Assembly: GCA_023091735.1 (NCBI GenBank)
Contig: JALKBU010000516.1
Location: forward strand, 1 to 35,876
Origin: Trichomonas tenax
Lineage: Eukaryota > Parabasalia > Trichomonadida > Trichomonadidae
Length of the DNA: 35,876 bases
Direction of reading: 5' to 3'
How positions within the stretch are numbered: position 1 is the first letter of the stretch; every line of letters starts with the position of its first letter. A program made the translations under genes and the position numbers. The notes below the pieces were generated by a model. The model ran no database searches and was not told the DNA's origin. It saw only the letters and a list, made by a program, of their open reading frames with translations. This document shows, one piece after another, positions 4,023-35,876 of the stretch.

Positions 4023-5044
4023 TTATTGCTTTGCACCGTAATCAAGAAGAAGTTTCTTCATTTGTTCATTTTTGCATATTTTAATGGACTATCTCCCAAA
4101 TTAACATCTACATGTTTCACTTTAATAAGGTACTCTGCAATATCATAATAATCATAATGTGATGCTGCCCAAAGAGGTGTTCTGTTGGAACCTGATAAAC
4201 AGTTTGGATTAACATTTGGAAGTTCACATAAAGATTTGACAGCTTCAATGTTATTTTTGCGCGTGAACAAAGTCAAAGGAGAATCATTTAGATACCCTCT
4301 TTATGATAGATTCACGCCGCACTCCGTCATCAATTTGATAAGTTTGAAGTTATTTTTATATGCTCCATGATATGCTATATCACCAATTTGAGTCACATTG
4401 TGATATTCATTGCTGATCGCATGACTAATAGCTGAAATATCGTTCTCGTTTGCCATCTTCTCTAAAATTTCATAAATCTGTTCGAAATGATCTTTGTTTT
4501 TTGGAATCTTTTTCAGATTTGTATAGTTATTGGAGCTAATATATTTTCGCATAGATTCTGTTACGTTATTAATCTTTTCGCTCAGTATTTCGATTTGAGA
4601 TGAGAATTTTCTATGAAAATCGCTACTAAAAGAGTCGAATTCGTTTCTGATGTCTTTGATGCTGCTTTCGTAATGTTTGTTCAAATTTTCTTGTGAATAG
4701 TTTTCGTTTTTGTGAGAGCAATCGAGGATAATGTCGCATAGTTTGTCGAGTAATGGAATTTTGAGAACTTTAGAGACAACACGAATGCTTTCAATAGATT
4801 TGAGAATATCTTTTTCACAAACAACAAAAACGTGTTCCAGCATCTCAAGGATCGATTCCTTCTTATTGAAAAATGATGCTTTTATAAATAATGTATTGAA
4901 TTATCCATTAGTTAGTTTTGCGAATTCGAGAATTTTGCAAATCTCAACTTTCGATCTTGTCTTGAAGAAAGACTCGTTATTGATATAAGCGTCTATGTTA
5001 TCTGCGATTGTTTCCCAATCTGAGCTTAGATTCGCTGTTTCCAT
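4023..5044 (-). pseudogene. Ankyrin-repeat protein pseudogene (trichomonad family)
   Basis: Reading the minus strand from an ATG at 5044-5042 gives a continuous family-like protein. It has an alpha-helical N-terminal region of about 180 residues, then ankyrin repeats with TPLWAA-type helices and Asn-rich loops. The frame is broken by two in-frame TAA codons (4903-4901 and 4303-4301) with no frameshift between them. Near the 3' end a one-base shift around 4060-4070 separates the frame from a good family C-terminus, MKKLLLDYGAKQ, which ends at the TAA at 4025-4023. Ankyrin proteins with this architecture form very large families in Trichomonas, and decayed copies are expected. The sequence shows the breaks; the original function (protein-protein scaffold) is inferred from the family. 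Residual intact pieces are 180 and 72 codons long. Confidence 0.85.
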
Positions 5045-5472
5045 CGAGTTAAAATATTCTAAAATTTTCCACCAAGATTTTTTGATTATATAAATTGCTG
5101 TGACTAAATATTTTCAGAATATCTCACAGAAAAAAATCAGTGTGTTGCCTCAATTTTCGGCGGTTTATAGTAAAGTCAAATAAATATTTTGCCATTTGAT
5201 GACGATAGGGGAAGTTTGACTAAAGCGGAACCTTAAATCATTCAATATTGAAGATATATGAATAAACGTCGAATCATTATTCTCAAGATCTTTAGGGGCA
5301 TTTATGATTATTTGATGTCATTTCCTGAATACATCATAGGTGTTGAAAAGGTCGATTTTATGGGTTTTCTGTCAAATTTTATCGAGGCATTTAATCAACA
5401 TATATCTTACTTCTAGAGTTGAATTCCTATATTGTAGTATAACCAATCAAAAGCTTATTGAAAAAAAGGTAA
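5045..5472. other. Intergenic spacer, nothing seen
   Basis: A 428-bp AT-rich spacer between the start of the ankyrin pseudogene and the stop of the next minus-strand gene. I see no gene, RNA or clear repeat. Confidence 0.55.
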
Positions 5473-6765
5473 TCATCTTAAACTGAGATTTCTAGCGTAT
5501 TCTTCGTATTCTATGATATCCTTTGTGAGAGAGTCGAATTTTTGCTTGAGAGGATATCCAGGAGATGAATTAGAAACAAGAGATCGTTTGAGATTTGTTG
5601 AGAATTTGCAGATATGATCAACATCAGTTTTCAAGTCTATTCCGCCTATTTTCGTGCCTAAACTATCAGCAATCATTGCCAGATACGTGAAAAGCATGTT
5701 ATCCTTTGTGTTCTGTTTAATTAAGTCATATCTTTCTTTGAGTTGATTAAACTTTCCTTTGTGTTTTATTAGTTTTTCTTTTAATATTTTTGCGATTTGT
5801 TTCGTGTTTATATAGTTTTTATGGCATTCCTTCAACTGGTCATTGAGTTCAATGATTTTGAATGCCATGTCATCATTATCACTTTTTAGTTTTGTAATAT
5901 CAGCACGATTTGATTCCGTTTTTGCTAATTTTAGTTGTAATTGCTGCTGATCATTCTGAAGACTACGTATAATGTCACTTGACTTCTGGAGCTGCAATTT
6001 GAGTTGTGTGACTTCATTGTTGTTGTTTTCTTGATCTTTAATTATCTTTTGTAACCTTTTGTTGGATTTTACTGTGTTTCTTAATACTAACTCTGTTTCT
6101 AACATTTTCTCGTTCAATCGTTTGATTTCTTGTTTGTGTTCAATCGATTCTTTAGAATTTATCGAGTTTTCTTCAAATTTTTGTATTAGTAATGAATTTA
6201 TTACGTTTGAGAGCTCAAACATGCCACATAGCTCTTGAAATGCATGTCTTACTTCGTCAATGTCCGCTGAATCTTCGATTTGATTCTTCAATAATTTTAT
6301 ATCAGAAAACTTCTGAAATATGTTTTCCAAACGTGTATTTTGGAAGTTTGGTAGGTCAATAGTTTCCATTTTGTTGTTTTTGGTGAAATTTTTAAATAAC
6401 GAGATTTGATTTTCGAAGTAATCTTTCGGTATAAGTTTGAAATTATTCCCAAAATTTGGTGAAACTAAGAACAATTCGAATATTTCTTGCTCACACGAAA
6501 GAGATTGTAGAAAATTGATCAAAAAGTTCATCAAATTAACTAATCTGGAGTTCTGTTCTTCTATGAAATTGTTTTCTGGTTTGATTTTAAGAGAATTTAC
6601 TTGCGTTAATAGATGTACACAAAGCAGAATAAGTTTTTCGAATTTACCATTTTGAGTTGTTTCACTTAGGATGTCAGAAAACAGTTTAACTTGGTCTATA
6701 TTCGAAATATCGATGTTTTCTTCGATACTTTTCATAAGTGACCCTTTATCTTTTCCTCCTTTCAT
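5473..6765 (-). CDS. Coiled-coil protein, 430 aa
   Basis: The product has an N-terminal helical domain (about residues 1-200) with several Phe/Leu-rich segments. A coiled coil follows at about 205-350, rich in Lys, Glu, Gln and Asn with a leucine heptad pattern, and then a short C-terminal helical region. There is no signal peptide, membrane helix or enzyme motif. It is probably a cytoskeletal or scaffold protein, since trichomonads encode many such proteins for their mastigont system, but the family is not recognised. The start codon is well supported because an Inr-like TCATTATA directly abuts the ATG and a CCCTTTT tract lies just before it. Confidence 0.75.
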   Translation of the reverse strand: MKGGKDKGSLMKSIEENIDISNIDQVKLFSDILSETTQNGKFEKLILLCVHLLTQVNSLKIKPENNFIEEQNSRLVNLMNFLINFLQSLSCEQEIFELFLVSPNFGNNFKLIPKDYFENQISLFKNFTKNNKMETIDLPNFQNTRLENIFQKFSDIKLLKNQIEDSADIDEVRHAFQELCGMFELSNVINSLLIQKFEENSINSKESIEHKQEIKRLNEKMLETELVLRNTVKSNKRLQKIIKDQENNNNEVTQLKLQLQKSSDIIRSLQNDQQQLQLKLAKTESNRADITKLKSDNDDMAFKIIELNDQLKECHKNYINTKQIAKILKEKLIKHKGKFNQLKERYDLIKQNTKDNMLFTYLAMIADSLGTKIGGIDLKTDVDHICKFSTNLKRSLVSNSSPGYPLKQKFDSLTKDIIEYEEYARNLSLR

Positions 6766-10663: not shown

Positions 10664-11533
10664 TTACACAATCTTGTTATATCTCCCATATCGAACTAAT
10701 TTTGGTAAATTAGACTTTTCGTAAGCTGGAGGTGTATTAATATTGAGCATCTTATCTTTCTGCTGCCTATAAAACTCTCTACGCTTATCTATTTCCGCTT
10801 CTAAATCAGGATTCTTTGATTTGTCGTGTTTTCTAGGTGGTGCTGAGTTATTTGCAATTTCAGGAGGCATTGGTTTGAAATTTCCCTCTAAAAGTGTCTC
10901 TATTTTGCTTTCTAATTCTGATGGAATTTTTGGTGGTTCATTTTCGATGATTTTTGGTGTTTTTGGAGATTTTCGTTCGAACTTTCGCTTCCTTTTTGGG
11001 GTTTTGGGGCTTACTTTCAGTAAATCTTTTGTTGAATTACAATTGACTGCGATTAGGTTGTTAATTCTTTCATTTTGCGATTTAGCTACAACTTGCGAAA
11101 ACAAAACAGCGAGTTTTTCCTTATCTATTCCTGGCTTATTTAACTGATCTTGAAATTTCGACAAAACTTGAGCGATATCGTAGTCAATATTTTGGTTAAT
11201 TATCATCATCTGTTTATGGAATTCCTGAAAAGACATCGCATTTTGGAATATATTGATCACAACCAAAGCTTTTACTTTAAAACTTTTTGCACAGCTAAAT
11301 AAAGTCCATTCTAATGTCTTCTCGTTGGTATTTGACGCTTTTGCAATCTTGTTGTCGACTAAATCAGCCACTAAATCGGTAAATCTGAGGAAAATTTTGT
11401 ATTGTTCTATATTATAGTTTTGTTCTTTGAATTTGTCGGCGTTGTCGTACATAAACGATATAATGGGCCGCCACCAAAGTTCTGACGACACAAATTCCGC
11501 CGCTTTGCCGAGAATGAATTCCTTAGTTTCCAT
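10664..11533 (-). CDS. BART-domain protein, CFAP36-like
   Basis: The product has 289 residues. Residues 1 to about 145 fit the BART (ARL2-binding) domain: an F-V-x(5)-WW-x-P-I-I-x-F first helix, an F-K-x-Q-N-Y-x-I-x-Q-Y segment, LVADLVDNKI, and the closing FQEFHKQMMIINQNIDYDI helix that corresponds to the F-x-x-F-x-x-M-x-x-x-N-x-x-L motif. The second half is disordered, with repeated SPKTPK basic motifs and a final Arg/Tyr-rich tail. BART domains bind ARL2/ARL3-type GTPases. CFAP36 (CCDC104) is a ciliary member with the BART domain at its N-terminus, which suits a flagellated protist. The call rests on pattern resemblance rather than a database search. ARL2BP is the main alternative, but its protein is shorter. 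Confidence 0.55.
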   Translation of the reverse strand: METKEFILGKAAEFVSSELWWRPIISFMYDNADKFKEQNYNIEQYKIFLRFTDLVADLVDNKIAKASNTNEKTLEWTLFSCAKSFKVKALVVINIFQNAMSFQEFHKQMMIINQNIDYDIAQVLSKFQDQLNKPGIDKEKLAVLFSQVVAKSQNERINNLIAVNCNSTKDLLKVSPKTPKRKRKFERKSPKTPKIIENEPPKIPSELESKIETLLEGNFKPMPPEIANNSAPPRKHDKSKNPDLEAEIDKRREFYRQQKDKMLNINTPPAYEKSNLPKLVRYGRYNKIV

Positions 11534-12617: not shown

Positions 12618-14539
12618 GTGCTGTTTCTCGTCCTCAGTTGCTGCAAGAAGCCGAAATTCCACTGCGGATTCACACGCGTGAGAGGTGAAGACCAGCACAA
12701 GAGAATTAAGTTTCCTGTTGCAAGGCCAGAGAGATCTGGAAAACCTAATAATCCAACGAATGGTGGTAACCAACCAATTCACTATAACAAGACACGCCCT
12801 ATTCTCATCGATCATAAACCTCTTAAGACTACTCCTTTTGAACAAATCAGGATCGAAATTGATACAAGATATCTTAATGGAACATTAGATGATCCAATGA
12901 GATGCAATGAAGTTGGACAAGTGATCAATTGGGATGACAAATATACATGTACTTCAGATGATATGCTTTCAGAAAAGAAAATTAATGCAACCATTGAAAC
13001 ACTTGAGAATGTTAAAGTATTCGTTCAAGAGCTGTTGTTAGTGCAAAGACTGTCATCTGGTTTCTATCCCGATAACTTCGCTTCTTACACAGATTTCAAC
13101 ACATCTGAATATGTTGAGGATGTTGAGATGCATTTCACTGCTATTTTGAGGCCATATGGCAGCAGTTTAAACATTATTGCTTCTGCCGGAGCCTGTCAGT
13201 TTGAATCAGAGTTTTTCAGACCGATTCAAGGTGTTATCTTCACTAAGCCAGCTCAGGTCTCAGAAGAGCCATTAAACTATAACTCATGGAACAATAACTA
13301 CTTCTATAAGCTAATACACGAAATGTGCCACGCCTTTGGTATTTCTCCACATATTTATGAATTTTATCACCCACAGAACACAGTTACACCGCATGAAAAC
13401 ATAACATGCAGCTTTACGAAGTCGGGAAAAACGTTCACATTCCTCATTACGCCTCAGGCACACTTATTCGCGGTCAAACACTTTAGCCAAGAGTATTTTT
13501 ACGGCGACAATGGACAAAAGTGCTGGTCGTGAATTGAGCTCGAAGACGGAGGTGGTGCTGGCACAGAGATGGCACACAAAGAGTCCCACGTTTTCATGTC
13601 TGAGATGATGGTCGGAATCAACATCCAAAGCGAAGCAGGTCCATTCAACAGATTGACTGATGTCTCGATGTTTTTCTTGATAGATTCCACTAACTACGAA
13701 GTCAATTGGACTAAACTTCAGCCAATATTTGGGGCAACAAGGAATCCACTAACGGAAACTACTTCACTGACTTCGCTACAGGACAAGCACAGCTTTCTTC
13801 CCATAAGCATATTTGTATAACGCAACGTATAACTTTGACACCTGTTTTGACTTCAAGTTCTTCGGTGGTAACGCTCAGACATCGGTGTCTTCATACAAAT
13901 GCCAATCAAGAAATGAAGAGATCCAACCATATTTCGAAGGTAAAGAGTTCTACAACGTTTTGAATGTCGACGAGGTCGGCGATGAATGGCCTTACGACTA
14001 TATTCCATTTAAGTTCCCAGAAACTGTTTGCGGTGACGGACAAGCTGTTCTACCAGGCATGGCTACTTGTGGGCAGTACACATGCAATGGCTACAACAGT
14101 TTCCAGATAAATGTGATTACAGCAGATTCCTATAATAAACAGCAAATCATTACATGCGATAACACGACTATTGGAAAGAGTTACACATTCAGCTACAACA
14201 CAGCTTGGGCCTACAACAAGATCTCAGTAACATGCGTTAACCCAAAGAGATTTTGTAGATCAGTTTCTCTCAGTGAAATGAAGTTTAACTCCAATCTATT
14301 TAGTTTAGAGACAATTTCTCCAAATAACACCTTCAAACTCAACAATTCCCGCTGTTACCTCAAAGACATCGTTACCGCCACTGATAATTCTAATCATTGC
14401 CTTATGTGTCATTGGTTTTGCCGGATTAATTGTAATAATTTTTTTTGTTGTCTTAATTATTAAAGGATCTAAGAAGCCCAAGACCTTGCAGAAGGGCGAA
14501 GCTCAGAGAGAGGAGGAAAATGCTGCAATTGACGTTTAA
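12618..14539 (+). pseudogene. GP63-like (leishmanolysin, M8) metallopeptidase pseudogene
   Basis: The translated pieces match the GP63-like family of zinc endopeptidases that trichomonads carry in many copies. The HExxH zinc motif reads HEMCH (codons at 13317-13331). A downstream GGGAGT...H segment supplies the third zinc His, and an EMM Met-turn follows. The C-terminal region is Cys-rich. The 3' end encodes a membrane helix and a charged cytosolic tail that stops at 14537-14539. The gene is broken. No in-frame ATG precedes the signal-like Leu/Val segment (the frame begins with GTG or further upstream), there is a TGA at 13530-13532 in the active-site domain, and frame changes are seen near 13735, near 13810 and near 14340. 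The intact copies are surface proteases that act on host proteins; this copy cannot make one. Confidence 0.9.
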
Positions 14540-26002: not shown

Positions 26003-27763
26003 TTAATCTGTGTGCTTGAGGTTGTACTTCTCACGAAGGAGGAGGTCATCCTGGACAGCCTTGACAACGGAGCTAAGCTCGTTTGTAGCCTTCTCGAGGT
26101 TCTCAGCGCCGAGCTCTATGTACCATTTGATCTTTGGCTCTGTGCCGGATGTACGGATTGTAGCAGCTGTGCCATTGTCGAGGTAGAATGTGATCATCTG
26201 GCCGGACTGCTTTGGAAGAGCTGGGACGTGGTCTGGTGTGCGTGAGTCGTAGCCGAGTGTCATATCACGAACGCCTGTGACGTTGAACTGACCAACCTTC
26301 TGGATGTGTTTGCTGTCTGGGCCGGATGTTCTCATGTGGACGAAGACAGCCTTGATGACTTCTGGGTCGTGGCACATGAAGTAGGAGTTGTTGAAGAGGT
26401 AGTAGCCGTACTTGGCGTAGATCTCATCGAGCTTGTCTGTGAGGGACTTCTTCTCAGTTCTCATGAGGTGGTGAGCCATTTCGAGAACGACGGCTGTTGT
26501 GGAGATAGCATCCTTATCTGGTGTTGTGCCTGGGACCATCTCGAAGCCGATGGCCTCTTCGAAGGCAAGGAGTGGAGTGATTCCCTGCTCAGCGGCCTTG
26601 AGAGCAGCGTTACCGAGCCACTTGAAGCCAGTGAGTGTTTCCTCGTACTGGAAGCCCTCAACCTCAGCGATTCTCTGTTGCATCTTTGTTGAAACTGTGG
26701 ATGAGAAGAACTTAGCCTTGGAGCGGTCGCCCTTGAAGTGCTGGATGTACCACCATGTGAGGAGTGTGCCCGTGTGGTTGCCGTGGAGGATGCGGAACTG
26801 GCCGTCCTTCTGGCGGACAGCAATGCCGACACGGTCAGCATCTGGGTCCTGGCATATGATGAGGTCAGCGCCCATCAAATTAGCGCGAGCGATGGAGTGG
26901 CGGAAGACTGGTTCGCCCTCTTCTGGGTTCGGGAAGGCAGATGTTGGGAAGTCGCCGTTACCTTCGCACTGCTCTGGGACTGGGATTGGGAGTGGAAGGT
27001 TGAATGTCTTGCATGCCCAAAGTGTTGGCTTGTGGCCGACACCGTGCATGGCAGAGTAGACAACGCGAAGGCCGGATGGCTTGTTGTTCTCCTCGTAGTG
27101 GAAGCAGAGCTTCTCGCGGATCATCTTGCCGTAGGCGGCGCGGACATCATCGAGTGGGTCGACACAAAGATCTGATGTGACGAATAACGATGGATCGAAG
27201 TTCTCCCATCTGATGAGGTTCTTCTGGATGGCAGCGGAGATGCCGGCATCGTGTGGTTCGATGATCTGAGCACCATTCTCCCAGTAGACCTTGTAGCCGT
27301 TGTCTGTGGCTGGGTTGTGGGAAGCAGTGACCATGACACCACCGGCGGCGTTGAGGAAGCGGATGGCGAAGGCAACATATGGAGTTGGGATGATTGTAGA
27401 GAACAAATAAACCTTGATTCCCTTCATAAGGAAGACTGATGCTGTGATTTCAGCGTACTCGCGTGAGTATTTTCTTGCATCGTAGCCAATAACGATACCA
27501 CGCTTCTGCATTGTCTCGATTCCTAATGTCTCGATGCAGTAAGCGCAGTAGCCCTGAGCTGTCTGTAAAATGAGACCTGGATTAATCTGTGTGTAGCCTG
27601 GGCCTGTGCGACCACGGATGCCGGCTGTGCCGAATGCAAGACGGCCTCCGAAGTACTTCTTGAGCTCAGCTTCGTTGTCAAGGATGCCCTTGATTGTCTC
27701 GATGTACTGCGGGATGCTCTCGACTGTGAGGTATTCCTCTGCGGCTTTGCGGAGTGCAGACAT
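26003..27763 (-). CDS. Phosphoglucomutase/phosphomannomutase (PGM2-like alpha-D-phosphohexomutase)
   Basis: This 586-residue enzyme interconverts hexose 1-phosphate and 6-phosphate, linking glycogen and nucleotide-sugar metabolism to glycolysis in the cytosol. All four signature loops are present. The catalytic phosphoserine motif is TASHNP (Ser148), the metal-binding loop is DPDADR (306-311), the sugar-binding loop is EEAIGF (402-407), and the phosphate-binding loop is RTSGTEPK (537-544). The FGTAGIRGR segment near the N-terminus (44-52) is typical of the PGM2/PMM branch, which acts on glucose 1-phosphate and/or deoxyribose phosphates, rather than the PGM1 branch. There is no targeting peptide. 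The codons are GC-richer (AAG, CTC) than in neighbouring genes, which suggests high expression. The start is fixed by an Inr 11 bp upstream. Confidence 0.92.
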   Translation of the reverse strand: MSALRKAAEEYLTVESIPQYIETIKGILDNEAELKKYFGGRLAFGTAGIRGRTGPGYTQINPGLILQTAQGYCAYCIETLGIETMQKRGIVIGYDARKYSREYAEITASVFLMKGIKVYLFSTIIPTPYVAFAIRFLNAAGGVMVTASHNPATDNGYKVYWENGAQIIEPHDAGISAAIQKNLIRWENFDPSLFVTSDLCVDPLDDVRAAYGKMIREKLCFHYEENNKPSGLRVVYSAMHGVGHKPTLWACKTFNLPLPIPVPEQCEGNGDFPTSAFPNPEEGEPVFRHSIARANLMGADLIICQDPDADRVGIAVRQKDGQFRILHGNHTGTLLTWWYIQHFKGDRSKAKFFSSTVSTKMQQRIAEVEGFQYEETLTGFKWLGNAALKAAEQGITPLLAFEEAIGFEMVPGTTPDKDAISTTAVVLEMAHHLMRTEKKSLTDKLDEIYAKYGYYLFNNSYFMCHDPEVIKAVFVHMRTSGPDSKHIQKVGQFNVTGVRDMTLGYDSRTPDHVPALPKQSGQMITFYLDNGTAATIRTSGTEPKIKWYIELGAENLEKATNELSSVVKAVQDDLLLREKYNLKHTD

Positions 27764-30551: not shown

Positions 30552-32030
30552 ATGAGTATTTCGAGATCATTCTCGTACACTCCACGATTCCTTCAGAACA
30601 AGCGCGCTCTGAACATCAACACCATAAGGAAGGAAGTCGTTGAATCGAGTTATTCGATTCGTGGAAATTTAAATATTGTCGCTGATCAATTAAGAAAGAG
30701 GATTGCTGCAGGCGAGAAATTACCCTTTGATCACATTATTCCATGCAATATCGGTAATCCATTAGCTGTTGGCAAGAATCCGTTGACTTTTCCAAGAGAT
30801 GTCGTTTCTTGCATTGAAAACGAGAGATTGCTCAACTCCAATGATATTCCTGAGGAGGCCAAGGATAGGGCCAGACAGATCATCGCTTCAGTTGGCGGAA
30901 CATTCGGTGCTTACACGAAATCAGAAGGAATGATGATTGTAAGACAGCACATTGCAGAATTCATCCATAAAAGAGATGGATATCCTTGCAAGCCGGACAG
31001 CATCTATCTTTCTGATGGCGCTTCCTCAGCAATCTCATTTTTGATGACTTTAATTATTTCACATCCAAATGTTGGCATAATGACTCCATTCCCAACATAC
31101 CCAGTTTACACAAGCGAGGCAGCAGTTCACAACGGAAAAATCGTTCCATTCTACTTAAGAGAGTCCAATAATTGGTCATGTGACATCGATGAGATCACAC
31201 GTGCATACAACCTCGCAATCAAGGAAGGAATTGACGTCAGGGCTATGGTTATCATCAATCCAGGCAATCCAACAGGCCACGTTTTGCGTCCAGAGACAAT
31301 GAGAATTATTGTCGACTTTTGCGAGCAGAACAACATCCTTCTCATTGCTGATGAAGTTTATCAAGATGTTGTATATAACAAAGAACGCCCATTCTATTCT
31401 TTCAAGAAGATTGCAAGCCAAATGAAATCTGAAATACAGCTTGTTTCTCTTCATTCCATTTCTAAGGGTTTCATGGGTGAATGTGGCCATCGCGGCGGGT
31501 ATTTCGAGCTTTATCACTTCCCAGAAGACGTTAAGCAGCAAATCACAAAGATGGCAACATTCGGATTGTGTCCAAACGCAGTTGGTCAAGTCATTGTTGA
31601 CTGCATGGTCCATCCACCAGAGTCACCAGAAAACAAGTCAGTTTGGGAGAAAGAAAACTCTGATTACATCAACAAACTCCAAGCGAAGTCAATTAAACTT
31701 GCAGAGTGCTTCAACTCGCTCCCAGGAATCAAGTGCAAGCCAGCAGATGGTGGATGGTACCTGTTCCCATCAATCAACCTTCCACTAAAAGCTCTCGAAG
31801 CAGCAAAGAGCTGCCGGTGGCATGGTGAAGTTATGCCTCCAGATTTCTTCTGGTGTTTGAAGCTTCTTGAGGAGACTGGTATCATTATTGTCCCAGGATC
31901 AGGATTTGGACAGGTCCCAGGAACATTCCACTTCAGGTCAACATTCTTGCCAGAAGATGATAGATTCGATCAAGTCATCGAAAGAATTACAAAGTTCCAA
32001 AATGACTTCATGAAGAAGTATGATGATTAA
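30552..32030 (+). CDS. Alanine aminotransferase-like (class I/II PLP aminotransferase)
   Basis: A 492-residue enzyme of the alanine aminotransferase group, which transfers the amino group between alanine and 2-oxoglutarate using PLP. Family marks visible are the DGASSAI phosphate-binding segment (155-161), PFPTYPVY (179-186), INPGNPTG (235-242), the cofactor-contacting IADEVYQDVVY (265-275), and the Schiff-base Lys305 in SLHSISKGF followed by GECGHRGGY (309-317). The length is normal for the family. The N-terminus, MSISRSFSYTPRF, carries an SRSF motif like the R-x-F cleavage motif of hydrogenosomal presequences, so hydrogenosomal import is possible but unproven. Alanine is a major secreted end product of trichomonads, which fits a role at pyruvate. 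An M3 motif lies 22 bp upstream. Confidence 0.9.
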   Translation: MSISRSFSYTPRFLQNKRALNINTIRKEVVESSYSIRGNLNIVADQLRKRIAAGEKLPFDHIIPCNIGNPLAVGKNPLTFPRDVVSCIENERLLNSNDIPEEAKDRARQIIASVGGTFGAYTKSEGMMIVRQHIAEFIHKRDGYPCKPDSIYLSDGASSAISFLMTLIISHPNVGIMTPFPTYPVYTSEAAVHNGKIVPFYLRESNNWSCDIDEITRAYNLAIKEGIDVRAMVIINPGNPTGHVLRPETMRIIVDFCEQNNILLIADEVYQDVVYNKERPFYSFKKIASQMKSEIQLVSLHSISKGFMGECGHRGGYFELYHFPEDVKQQITKMATFGLCPNAVGQVIVDCMVHPPESPENKSVWEKENSDYINKLQAKSIKLAECFNSLPGIKCKPADGGWYLFPSINLPLKALEAAKSCRWHGEVMPPDFFWCLKLLEETGIIIVPGSGFGQVPGTFHFRSTFLPEDDRFDQVIERITKFQNDFMKKYDD

Positions 32031-32723
32031 TCTAATGAATACCATATAAACTCTTTTTGTCTATTTATCAATTTAAATCACATCTTTAATCAATTTAAAA
32101 TAAATGAAAGTCATAAATGATGCTTTTTTTTATTTCTTATAAATCACTTCTGAAATGATGCTTTTTTATTTTTTATGCCTTTTTATATAAGATTGGAGAA
32201 GTGCTGTAGTAGTATATGTTGGGGGTTGTTTGCCAAAATTTGCAAACACGTTGATATCATAAATTTTTATATATTGACCCCATTTTTGGAGGATTTATCG
32301 TTTGATTTCCGACAGTCTGAATGATTCAATATTACGGGCTCTTTGAGCCCTGCGGGTCAAGGACCCACAAGGCTGCAAGTTAATTTTAAAAAAATAATGT
32401 ATGAGTCATAAATGAATTATATTTTTGGATGTTAGTGGGGGAAAGTTTTGAAAAATTTTGTTATTGAATACGTATAGAAAATTGAGAGGGGTTAAAATCG
32501 AAATCGCGAAAATATTTTGCTTTGAATTTTGAATAGTGTCTCAAATGTGAAAATGTGAAAATATGAGAGATAATGAATGATAATTAAAATATACAAAGAG
32601 ACGGTTAATGAAATTTTTTCATAAAATAATAAAGAAATGTTAATAAATAATTTAAAATTTTATGAAAAGATTTGAATTTACTCCCTTGTTTACGTAAAAT
32701 TTGATTGAAATCGTTAAACGACA
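32031..32723. other. Left flank of the primase-helicase element
   Basis: An AT-rich spacer. It has a 16-bp AAATGATGCTTTTTT-type direct repeat near 32117 and 32156, a GTTTGC/GCAAAC hairpin near 32230-32248, and the double hairpin at 32336-32366. The last 30 bp (32691-32720) contain an inverted copy of the ACGATTTCAATCAAA word found in the right TIR, so the element may start a little before the TTAG tract. Confidence 0.5.
32336..32366. repeat. Double hairpin (6-3-6 then 5-3-5)
   Basis: GGGCTC-TTT-GAGCCC (32336-32350) is followed after 3 nt by GGGTC-AAG-GACCC (32354-32366). Both stems are perfect and GC-rich in a very AT-rich background. The geometry is the same as at 32816-32845, although the sequences differ. 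Confidence 0.75.
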
Positions 32724-32815
32724 AACTAACTAACTAACTAACTAAAAAAAAGAAAGCGTAAGGATTTTGAGACTTCGAAAATTTAAAAAATAATTTTTGA
32801 GTGTTTATGATTAAA

Positions 32816-32845
32816 GAACCCTCAGGGTTCCCGGTGCTAAGCGCC
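32816..32845. repeat. Double hairpin inside the left TIR
   Basis: GAACCC-TCA-GGGTTC (32816-32830) is followed after 2 nt by GGTGC-TAA-GCGCC (32833-32845, one T-G pair). It has the same 6-3-6 plus 5-3-5 layout as 32336-32366. It is absent from the right TIR, so it looks like an insertion into the left copy. Confidence 0.75.
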
Positions 32846-32874
32846 AAATTTAATGTTTTAAGTCAATTTTTTAT

Positions 32875-32952
32875 GTGGACCAGGTGGACCGAGTGGACCA
32901 GGTCCAAAAATCGTATTGAAAAAATGTGACAACATGACATTTTGACAACATG
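32875..32952. repeat. Iteron cluster of the left TIR (putative origin)
   Basis: Three contiguous 9-mers read GTGGACCAG, GTGGACCGA and GTGGACCAG (32875-32901) and are followed by GTCC, making a GGACC-AG-GTCC palindrome. Two exact TGACAACATG copies lie at 32927-32936 and 32943-32952. Iterons next to a replicative primase-helicase gene are typical of replication origins in plasmids and viruses. That role is inferred here. Confidence 0.6.
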
Positions 32953-33012
32953 GGGGTATGAACAAAAATAAAGTTAATTTTTTCAATAATTTATTTTTTT
33001 AATTTCTCTAAA

Positions 33013-35292
33013 ATGACAACAAACAACAACACTGAACAAATCATAAATTCATTAGTTGAGGAATTAATTAAAACTGAATCACAAACATTAAATGAAAGGA
33101 TAAATGACAACTTTGTTGAATTAAACAACTATTTGAAACATGATGGCGGAAAAGGAAGAAAAACTGGTAGGGCTTTATTAATAAATAAAATTCCAAATTT
33201 AACTATAATTGACATTGACATTAACAAAAATTACAGTGATAAACAAAAAGAAAATGTCAGAAACGATTTATTGAATAAATTATCAGATTTAGACGTTATC
33301 GTTAAAACCGCTTCAGGAGGAATGCACATTTATTGCAACACTAATTTCTTCACTGTTTCTTCAAACAGAATGATTAAATGCTATTCATGTTCAGATTTTG
33401 ATATTGATTTAATGAGTTCATTTGACGAATCCAAAAAATCATTAGTCGTTGCAGCAAATTCAAGAGTTCGTAAAAACGCGACTGAACCCATTTGTTCATA
33501 TTCATTTATTCGTGGTAATTATGACTCAAAACTAACTAGAAGCGTTAATGATGTATTAAATGATTTAAACATTAAATTACAGATTAAAGACAATCAAGAA
33601 ATTAAGGCAATTATTGAAAAACATGAAGGAATAGAAATTTCTGAAGAATTAGCTCGTGCTTTAGTCGATGGAATAGCAGATTTTGAAGTTCATAACGACG
33701 CAGGAAATATGACGATCGAAAAAGAAATTACTTTATTTACACTATTTCAAGCAATTAATTCATTACCGAAACAGTTTATCGAAGAAGCTTACGATAACGT
33801 TTATACCTTCTGTAAGCTTACCGATAACGCCAAAAATAATTTTGAAAACGCAAGAGCTCGTTATTCAAATCTCTACACATCCCCATTTGTTCTAGCAAAA
33901 ATTTTAAGGATTTACCAAAAGGAATATTATGATGAATTCGTTAAACCTTTGATTCAAAAGAAAGCCTTAATTTTTGATATTGATTTATCCGAACAATTTG
34001 ATTTAAATTCAATAATTAAAAAAGCTGATAATAAAGAATATAAGACGCAAAACGAAGTAATGACAGATTTAACAAAAGTTATTCGTCGAATTGATGGAGA
34101 AAATATTATGTTTATCAAGAAAACATTTGACGTTTATGCAAATAAATATGTTTTCAGTTTCTGTTCAAATCAAACGATGAAAGAAATGCTAAAAGCAGTT
34201 AAACTTTGGAAAGATGGTTTAAAATATTTCACAGCTTGGGAGGTATTAAGTCAAAATATAAGCATGATTTCGTGTAAAGGTGTTAAGTTTAACAGCAACG
34301 ATAAAAACATATTTTCATTATTCCAAGGGTATAAATATAAAGTTCTTGACAGCATTAATGAATTGTTAATCAAACCGTTCCTGAATTTAATCCATGAAGT
34401 CATTTGCGACAATGATAATGAAATATATAATTATGTCATTAATTGGATTTCATACATAATTCAAAATCCAGGATTAAAAACAGAAACAGCGTTAGTGCTT
34501 AAAGGATTGCAGGGAATTGGTAAAAATACATTTACTGATGTTATTTCAGAACTTCTCATAGGTTATTCAATAAAGAATTTAACAGAAATTGCAGAATTAA
34601 CGGGTTCGTTTAATTCAGTAGTTGAAGCCAAAATGTTAATTGTTTTAAACGAATTAAGAAATATTGGCGAAGAACGTTTAGCTAATTTCGATTCATTAAA
34701 GTCAATCATTACCGATAAAACAATAAGAATTAATGAGAAATTCCAACCACGTCGAACTGCTGAAAACGTTTCTAACTTCATTTTCGTTTCTAATAACGCT
34801 TACCCCGTCAAAATTGAATCTGGAGACAGACGTTATGTTGTGCTTGCATGTAATGGAAAGTATAAAGGAAATCAAAAATATTGGTCTAATTTATTCTCTT
34901 TATTCACCACAGAATTTTATGAAAACTTAATGACATATTTTATGAAACACGATATTAAAGAATTTAACCCTCGTATTATTCCTATGACTGAAGCAAAACA
35001 AGATTTAATCGAAGCCTCCAGAACTCCTTTAGATAATTGGATTTGCGAACATTATGATGAATTAATATTAGGTATTTCGTGCAGTGATGCTTTAACATCA
35101 AAGCCGTCAGAAATGAAAGATAAAAATTTCCAACTTCAGATTAAAGATAAATGCAACCGTAAGCGAATAACAATTCATGGGAAACGTGTATGGTGTTATA
35201 TCCTAAAAGATGAATGTAAACAAATATACAAACAAATACTGCATGAAATTGATGAAGAAATTGATATTGATGATATACCAACTCATGAATAA
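33013..35292 (+). CDS. Primase-polymerase fused to SF3 (D5/DUF5906-like) helicase
   Basis: A 759-residue replication protein. The N-terminal part fits the archaeo-eukaryotic primase/PrimPol fold: motif I is the metal-binding D-I-D at 67-69, motif II is SGGMHIY with His105, and motif III is the acidic FDIDLM at 129-134. A linker follows. The helicase domain starts near 435 (FQGYKYKVL). It has a Walker A at 498-505 (GLQGIGKN), a hydrophobic Walker B ending in Asn546-Glu547 and the sensor VSNN (592-595). The arginine-finger type G-D-R-R-Y lies at 604-608. This resembles the DUF5906 helicases of phage NrS-1-type and NCLDV/virophage-type primase-helicases. It would prime and unwind DNA, probably for replication of the element that carries it. 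The gene is intact and AT-rich (AAT, AAA, TTA codons), and its stop lies 4 bp before the right TIR. Confidence 0.88.
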   Translation: MTTNNNTEQIINSLVEELIKTESQTLNERINDNFVELNNYLKHDGGKGRKTGRALLINKIPNLTIIDIDINKNYSDKQKENVRNDLLNKLSDLDVIVKTASGGMHIYCNTNFFTVSSNRMIKCYSCSDFDIDLMSSFDESKKSLVVAANSRVRKNATEPICSYSFIRGNYDSKLTRSVNDVLNDLNIKLQIKDNQEIKAIIEKHEGIEISEELARALVDGIADFEVHNDAGNMTIEKEITLFTLFQAINSLPKQFIEEAYDNVYTFCKLTDNAKNNFENARARYSNLYTSPFVLAKILRIYQKEYYDEFVKPLIQKKALIFDIDLSEQFDLNSIIKKADNKEYKTQNEVMTDLTKVIRRIDGENIMFIKKTFDVYANKYVFSFCSNQTMKEMLKAVKLWKDGLKYFTAWEVLSQNISMISCKGVKFNSNDKNIFSLFQGYKYKVLDSINELLIKPFLNLIHEVICDNDNEIYNYVINWISYIIQNPGLKTETALVLKGLQGIGKNTFTDVISELLIGYSIKNLTEIAELTGSFNSVVEAKMLIVLNELRNIGEERLANFDSLKSIITDKTIRINEKFQPRRTAENVSNFIFVSNNAYPVKIESGDRRYVVLACNGKYKGNQKYWSNLFSLFTTEFYENLMTYFMKHDIKEFNPRIIPMTEAKQDLIEASRTPLDNWICEHYDELILGISCSDALTSKPSEMKDKNFQLQIKDKCNRKRITIHGKRVWCYILKDECKQIYKQILHEIDEEIDIDDIPTHE

Positions 35293-35367
35293 ACAATTTA
35301 TTTTTGTTCATACCCCCATGTTGTCAAAATGTCATGTTGTCATAGTTTTTCAATACGATTTTTGGAC

Positions 35368-35394
35368 CTGGTCCACTCGGTCCACCTGGTCCAC
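35368..35394. repeat. Iterons of the right TIR
   Basis: The mirror of the left cluster: three 9-mers CTGGTCCAC, TCGGTCCAC and CTGGTCCAC. The two CATGTTGTCA copies lie at 35317-35326 and 35333-35342. Confidence 0.6.
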
Positions 35395-35399
35395 ATAAA

Positions 35400-35611
35400 A
35401 AATTCACCCAAAACATCAAATTTTGCGTATATGTTGCCCAATATTCAAAACTTTACATATAAATTCACCCAAAACATCAAATTTTAAGTATATGTTGCCC
35501 AATATTCAAATCTTAACGTATAAATTAACTTAAAACATCAAATTTTGTGTATATAAAGCCTCAATATTCAATTCTTTACGTATAAATTGACGATTTCAAT
35601 CAAATTTCAAA
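35400..35611. repeat. 61-62-bp tandem repeat in the right TIR
   Basis: Units begin at 35400, 35461, 35522 and 35584 (the last one partial). They share AAATT-start, AAAACATCAAATTTT and CAATATTCAA words, and the copies diverge outward. The same unit, internally deleted, reappears outside the TTAG tract at about 35699-35752. The left TIR has no such array. Confidence 0.85.
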
Positions 35612-35697
35612 CATAAACACTCAAAAATTATTTTTAAATTTCCTAACTCATAAAATCCTTTCGCTTTCTTTTTTTAGTTAGTTAGTTAGTTAGTTAG

Positions 35698-35876
35698 TAA
35701 ACTTAACTTAAAACATCAAATCTTTACGTATAAATTGACGATTTCAATTAAAGTCCATAGCATGCCACAAATATATATCATATAATCTATCATATAATCT
35801 ATCAAGAGAATATCTTATATTATAACATCTGCGCGCATGTTTAAAATGATCCTCATCTTTATCATCAATGTTCAAA
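35698..35876. other. Right flank of the element
   Basis: It begins with a rearranged copy of the subterminal repeat (to about 35752), then AT-rich sequence with two ATCATATAATCT copies near 35778-35802. No gene is seen before the window ends. Confidence 0.5.

Follow-up and report, generated by a model that had tools for sequence, protein, structure and literature searches.

Mavericks or Polintons are bounded by terminal inverted repeats (TIRs) with a 5'-AG start and lie between 6-bp target-site duplications. They encode a family-B DNA polymerase of the protein-primed type, an rve integrase, a packaging ATPase and capsid proteins. Virophages are marked by capsid genes of their own type, and transpovirons are linear plasmids of giant viruses. 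Replicases of the PrimPol-SF3 (DUF5906/D5-like) kind have as their hallmark the primase motifs DxD, sxH and D, together with the Walker A, Walker B and arginine finger motifs of the SF3 helicase. A Maverick primase is a gene type already in print: the accessible part of PMC7845603 lists a 'Mav1.6 DNA primase domain protein' with 2,716 open reading frames (ORFs) in Trichomonas vaginalis Mavericks. For virophages and Polinton-like viruses, the replacement of genes is likewise described, as far as the accessible parts of these papers go (PMC8547959, PMC12220804, PMC3671162). Specifically, polymerase genes of Polinton-like viruses show replacement (PMC4642659, PMC12220804), and among the EMALE virophages some types have both a primase/helicase and a pPolB, and TIRs are regenerated after truncation (PMC8547959). 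The combination of a primase-helicase with a family-B polymerase is called 'not common' in the accessible part of PMC3671162, yet it occurs in some EMALEs (PMC8547959).

Here we analyze 35,876 nt of Trichomonas tenax DNA, the whole of which we call the window; other contigs of the genome are given C numbers. Probably, the last part of the window is the leftmost 3.7 kb of an element of the Maverick/Polinton type, with the right TIR, the element's own duplication and its other genes cut off by the contig end, and this element contains a PrimPol cassette that is exchanged between Mavericks by recombination (Table 1).

Table 1. Features at the right end of the window, in nucleotide positions of the window
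Feature	Position	Strand	Remarks
Left terminus (TIR) of Maverick	32208..32334	+	begins AGTAGTATATGTTGGGGG...; recurring start after unrelated flanks
Subterminal repeat blocks	32395..32717	+	blocks 32395-32455, 32468-32673 and 32666-32717 recur on other contigs
Outer arm (OUT), left	32721..32836	+	(ACTA)n plus AAAAAAAGAAAGCG...; bounds gene c6 elsewhere
Inner arm (INN), left	32863..32972	+	9-nt units GTGGACCAG at 32875-32903
PrimPol-SF3 primase-helicase gene (DUF5906, NrS-1/D5-like)	33013..35292	+	759 aa, intact
Inner arm (INN), right	35297..35404	-	9-nt units at 35366-35394
SAT, 61-bp tandem repeat	35400..35588	+	3.1 copies; adjoins arm exterior in several sister copies too
Outer arm (OUT), right	35606..35698	-	(TTAG)n at 35674-35698
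C-terminal 43 codons of another gene	35744..35876	-	severed by contig end

A Maverick-type terminus in the window

A Maverick-type terminus lies at 32208, 177 bp past the stop of an aminotransferase ORF. When the left flank (32031-32735) is used as a query, repeats start at 32205-32208, and among the 40 of 107 candidates that were scored no match besides the window itself starts earlier. The same start, AGTAGTATATGTTGGGGG, is found in C725 and C1487, and as AGTAGTATATATAGGGGG in C471, in each case after unrelated DNA. Its 27 nt occur at 69 sites in the genome with at most three mismatches, compared with 0 sites for a reversed-pattern control. Terminal inverted repeats are represented by the left end in the window and by two facing ends in the sister contig C978, the only pair that was examined, which are 2.5 kb apart and are each followed on the outside by CATCAT; the C978 stretch between them covers 4086-6612 and ends in L052 and L053. 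In the window, TGCTGT at 32202-32207 is a candidate target duplication, present on the left side only, its partner lying beyond the contig end. At the right edge, the severed gene fragment has 72-87% DNA identity to 11 other places, including an 86-aa ORF on C1374.

The rest of the window has probable host genes, i.e., a BART-like gene (10664-11533), a leishmanolysin-like gene (12618-13532), a phosphoglucomutase (26003-27763) and the aminotransferase (30552-32030). Many copies lie at contig ends, which had suggested a subtelomere, and an exact search for (TTAGGG)3 was empty. We dropped the idea because the shared start and the C978 duplication fit Mavericks breaking the assembly.

The primase-helicase gene and its copies

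The initial annotation described a single intact PrimPol-SF3 gene between inverted repeats whose inner arms are identical at 106 of 108 positions, and both points were confirmed when the ORF, its motifs and the repeat arms were read again. Judged by its sequence, the 759-aa protein is a primase-SF3 helicase. Its helicase part is matched by DUF5906 in Pfam, and the protein also matches phage DNA primase families in PHROGs. The nearest solved relative in the PDB, by sequence and by predicted fold, is the C-terminal region of the NrS-1 primase; the fold comparison covered chiefly the C-terminal region. In an alignment of 17 homologues the primase residues are invariant, and the primase DxD, sxH and D motifs and the SF3 Walker A, Walker B and arginine finger motifs are all invariant or nearly so. 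No relative of the protein was confirmed among viral contigs.

The gene is multi-copy and under purifying selection. At least 62 PrimPol matches lie on 52 contigs of the genome (59 of 125 first-look candidates scored), which supports a family with many copies, and two of these matches, in the window and in C206, are nearly full-length and free of stops. Comparison of the window gene with six genomic copies gives dN/dS values of 0.08-0.16, with stops in the copies excluded; for C206, C279 and C222 dS is saturated, at a value near 2.

Sixteen of the 52 PrimPol contigs have a packaging ATPase (9), an rve integrase (3) or a terminus (5), compared with 1.8, 1.1 and 2.3 expected by chance if all contigs are weighted alike, so the rve and terminus counts, taken singly, are near chance; the other 36 have no match to any of the three. 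In the whole genome there are 33 rve matches and 79 matches to the PF03175 polymerase, the latter on five of the 52 PrimPol contigs (C1374, C373, C1322, C413 and C1507), and neither gene is visible within the window. The statement in the initial annotation that PolB takes the place of such an enzyme in Trichomonas Mavericks is an oversimplification, given these five shared contigs and the Maverick DNA primase in the accessible part of PMC7845603. On C1374 (22.4 kb) a partial primase (76% identical) shares the contig with a family-B polymerase, a packaging ATPase and an rve integrase, which may belong to one element.

The packaging ATPase P0007 matches a phage terminase (2.5e-7) and has no Pox_A32 match in Pfam; its relative P0132 matches Pox_A32 (1.2e-5). 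The capsid candidates P0009 and P0010 have no convincing family match, and their labels are guesses. P0006, which adjoins the 75% PrimPol copies and was read as a polymerase from its motifs, has one weak polymerase match, below the cut-off (E 9.5e-4), and none in other searches; its reading as a polymerase was dropped. C373 has a KilA-N gene. On C12, the protein encoded by L009 246-2003 resembles phage tail or baseplate proteins, with matches to Gp10_C (5.5e-21) and to a phage tail repeat (1.4e-10), and an HNH-like match falls below the cut-off (E 5.7e-4).

Repeat arms and proposed exchange between Mavericks

Within a copy, the two arms are 98.1% identical in the window, 97.3% in C12 and 91.5% in C599, but only 78.2% in C367. 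Between the window and C12 the stretch of gene and arms (2,548 nt) is 92.5% alike, the arms themselves are 79-82% alike, and the similarity ends at the outer ends of the arms. Apart from C367, these values agree with one arm serving as the template for the other, or with both arms being exchanged as a pair, and fold-back or template switching of linear DNA during replication would be expected to have this effect. Short units are repeated in tandem in the arms. The unit of the window is GTGGACCAG; by eye, C12 has GTGCACCAG and C1471 has GGTTCCTA-like units, and the outer arms have ACTA. For six arm pieces picked by eye, the self-similarity was equalled by 0 of 1000 shuffles in four, by 1 of 1000 in C1471 and by 60 of 1000 in C1374, the one piece of the six in which the short-unit signal is absent.

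The same cassette is found in different element surroundings, and other genes are found at corresponding sites. Specifically, C1471 1-890 corresponds to C12 8355-9202 (88.7%) and C1471 4328-5706 to C12 11848-13175 (88.2%), and between these collinear flanks C12 has a window-type cassette (arms of 107 nt, 100%) where C1471 has a 36%-identical primase on the opposite strand with other arms (113 nt, 98%). The window and C369 similarly share 32411-32815 (87%) and 35615-35709 (92%), with PrimPol in the window and the unrelated gene c6 in C369. The window has its PrimPol gene at a distance of 805 from the TIR, and c6 follows at 797 in C327 and 838 in C284, in both of which the match to c6 is confined to its first 32 residues. 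Other copies depart from this spacing: PrimPol of C430 is at 971, a 46% relative in C452 at 878, and c6 in C1319, met from its 3' end, at 573. Behind the packaging ATPase, c6 with outer arms is present in C1065 (90%) and C207 (92%), a 30% c6 relative follows another repeat in C1374, C279 has no c6, and C373 and C1036 have other DNA.

The c6 gene of C369 (412 aa, L047 1747-2985) forms an (ACTA)n-bounded cassette of its own; its family has 63 matches in the genome and 20 public relatives, whereas Pfam, PHROGs and NCBIfam yielded nothing convincing. A further family, c3 (207-247 aa, in which an internal repeat can be made out by eye), lies near these repeats on several contigs (L048 1091-1834, L047 528-1151, L034, L033), in two ORFs on some of them, and is absent from the window; it has no convincing match in Pfam or PHROGs.

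These comparisons suggest that the gene and its arms act as an exchangeable cassette, which would be swapped between Mavericks by recombination. It is rather unlikely that PrimPol is instead an ordinary resident Maverick gene, its arms being intergenic repeats such as terminators, promoters or recombination by-products without a role in exchange, and the differences between copies reflecting old divergence and rearrangement. Such a reading would accommodate the 75% copies (C206, C222, C279), which have no near-complete arms at the gene and only partial arm matches farther away, as well as the similar repeats between other genes. However, in C12 and C1471 genes on opposite strands, each with its own arms, replace each other between flanks that are 88-89% identical, and PrimPol and c6 do so between common flanks; both swaps are block changes at repeat borders.

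We consider it improbable that each cassette is a small cut-and-paste transposon nested in Mavericks, with c6, c3 or the PrimPol protein as an unrecognized transposase, even though the end of the similarity between the window and C12 at the arms and the presence of c6 behind the ATPase in C1065 but not in C279 would agree with it. Neither in the window nor in C12 did we see a direct target duplication at the arms, whose flanks are themselves inverted on both sides, and the profile searches with c6 and c3 gave no convincing match, a result that is still compatible with a novel transposase.

The surroundings of the arms bear on whether the unit stands alone. We read the 14 contigs with near-complete inner arms (C842, C150 and C17, with partial arms, were left out), and on 12 of these SAT or OUT repeats lie just outside an arm. 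C18 has neither at its arm, but the 388 bases beyond it are 67-90% similar to other loci of these elements. The cassette of C12 sits among Maverick-like genes. Neither plain host DNA at an arm nor a unit ending in host DNA with its own target duplication was met on any of the 14 contigs, and swaps were found but no clean empty site for the PrimPol cassette.

The initial annotation had read the locus as a minimal stand-alone replicon, and had itself named repeats belonging to a larger Maverick as the finding that would speak against this. The arms apparently do belong to one, with its terminus on the left and a shared gene fragment on the right; what survives of the proposal is the PrimPol-SF3 gene type, the many copies and a repeat-bounded unit that recurs in different surroundings. 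An autonomous small linear replicon or satellite, i.e., one gene between composite TIRs with integration enzymes supplied in trans, is therefore largely refuted by the terminus and highly improbable, and the absence of host DNA and of direct duplications at the arms also counts against it. The short public contigs of PrimPol homologues are what a short repeated unit would give: at most 700 nt lie beyond the gene for 50 of 93 homologues, while the same is true of 42 among the 120 listed of 493 ATPase homologues (Mann-Whitney p 0.03). However, public contigs of c6 are equally short (13 of 20), and fragmented assembly of repeats accounts for the short PrimPol contigs too, which makes this a weak argument. 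A single gene between inverted repeats can pass for a small transposon.

For a cassette exchanged by recombination, the following course may be envisaged. The cassette, bounded by inverted repeats and carrying one PrimPol-SF3 replicase gene, lies about 805 bp inside the Maverick TIR. Its enzyme would open and prime the linear DNA of the element beside the family-B polymerase, perhaps starting at the short units of the arms; that it binds its own arms is a guess. Cassettes would then trade places through homologous recombination or template switching, with the arms and flanking repeats of co-replicating Mavericks as exchange partners, and would move without a transposase of their own. A bolder reading, which we hold to be unlikely, is that Mavericks here are partly built of inverted-repeat-bounded single-gene cassettes with their own iteron-like arms, the PrimPol cassette being a replicator plus origin that amplifies inside a replicating Maverick and recombines into others, and hence a hyperparasite of a virus-like transposon.

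Comparison with described elements

Among the closest counterparts is T. vaginalis Tv1.6, which shares the primase gene of a parabasalid Maverick. TVAGG3_0043110, a protein of T. vaginalis G3, has 61% identity with the window protein and is presumably the Tv1.6 primase; the accessible part of PMC7845603 does not mention arm-bounded cassettes. With the NrS-1 primase-polymerase and the D5-type PrimPol-SF3 replicases the window gene shares the DUF5906 helicase, NrS-1 being the best PDB match by sequence and fold, but it belongs to a eukaryotic genome, and its contigs carry Maverick genes.

The arrangement of gene and arms as an exchangeable cassette looks new: we recognized no repeat-bounded cassettes in the accessible parts of the literature, although this does not prove that none have been described. 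Polinton-like viruses with AEP-S3H or TVpol-S3H (PMC4642659, PMC12220804) have a primase-SF3 fusion replicase in a TIR-bounded element, but repeat-bounded single-gene cassettes are not mentioned in the accessible parts of these papers. The EMALE virophages of Cafeteria resemble our elements in that the primase/helicase gene is replaced between related elements, though the accessible part of PMC8547959 says nothing of matching inverted arms that flank the gene being exchanged. The T. tenax genome likewise has contigs that pair a primase-helicase with a family-B polymerase, and repeat-bounded cassettes at recurring slots would give gene replacement a visible DNA mechanism.
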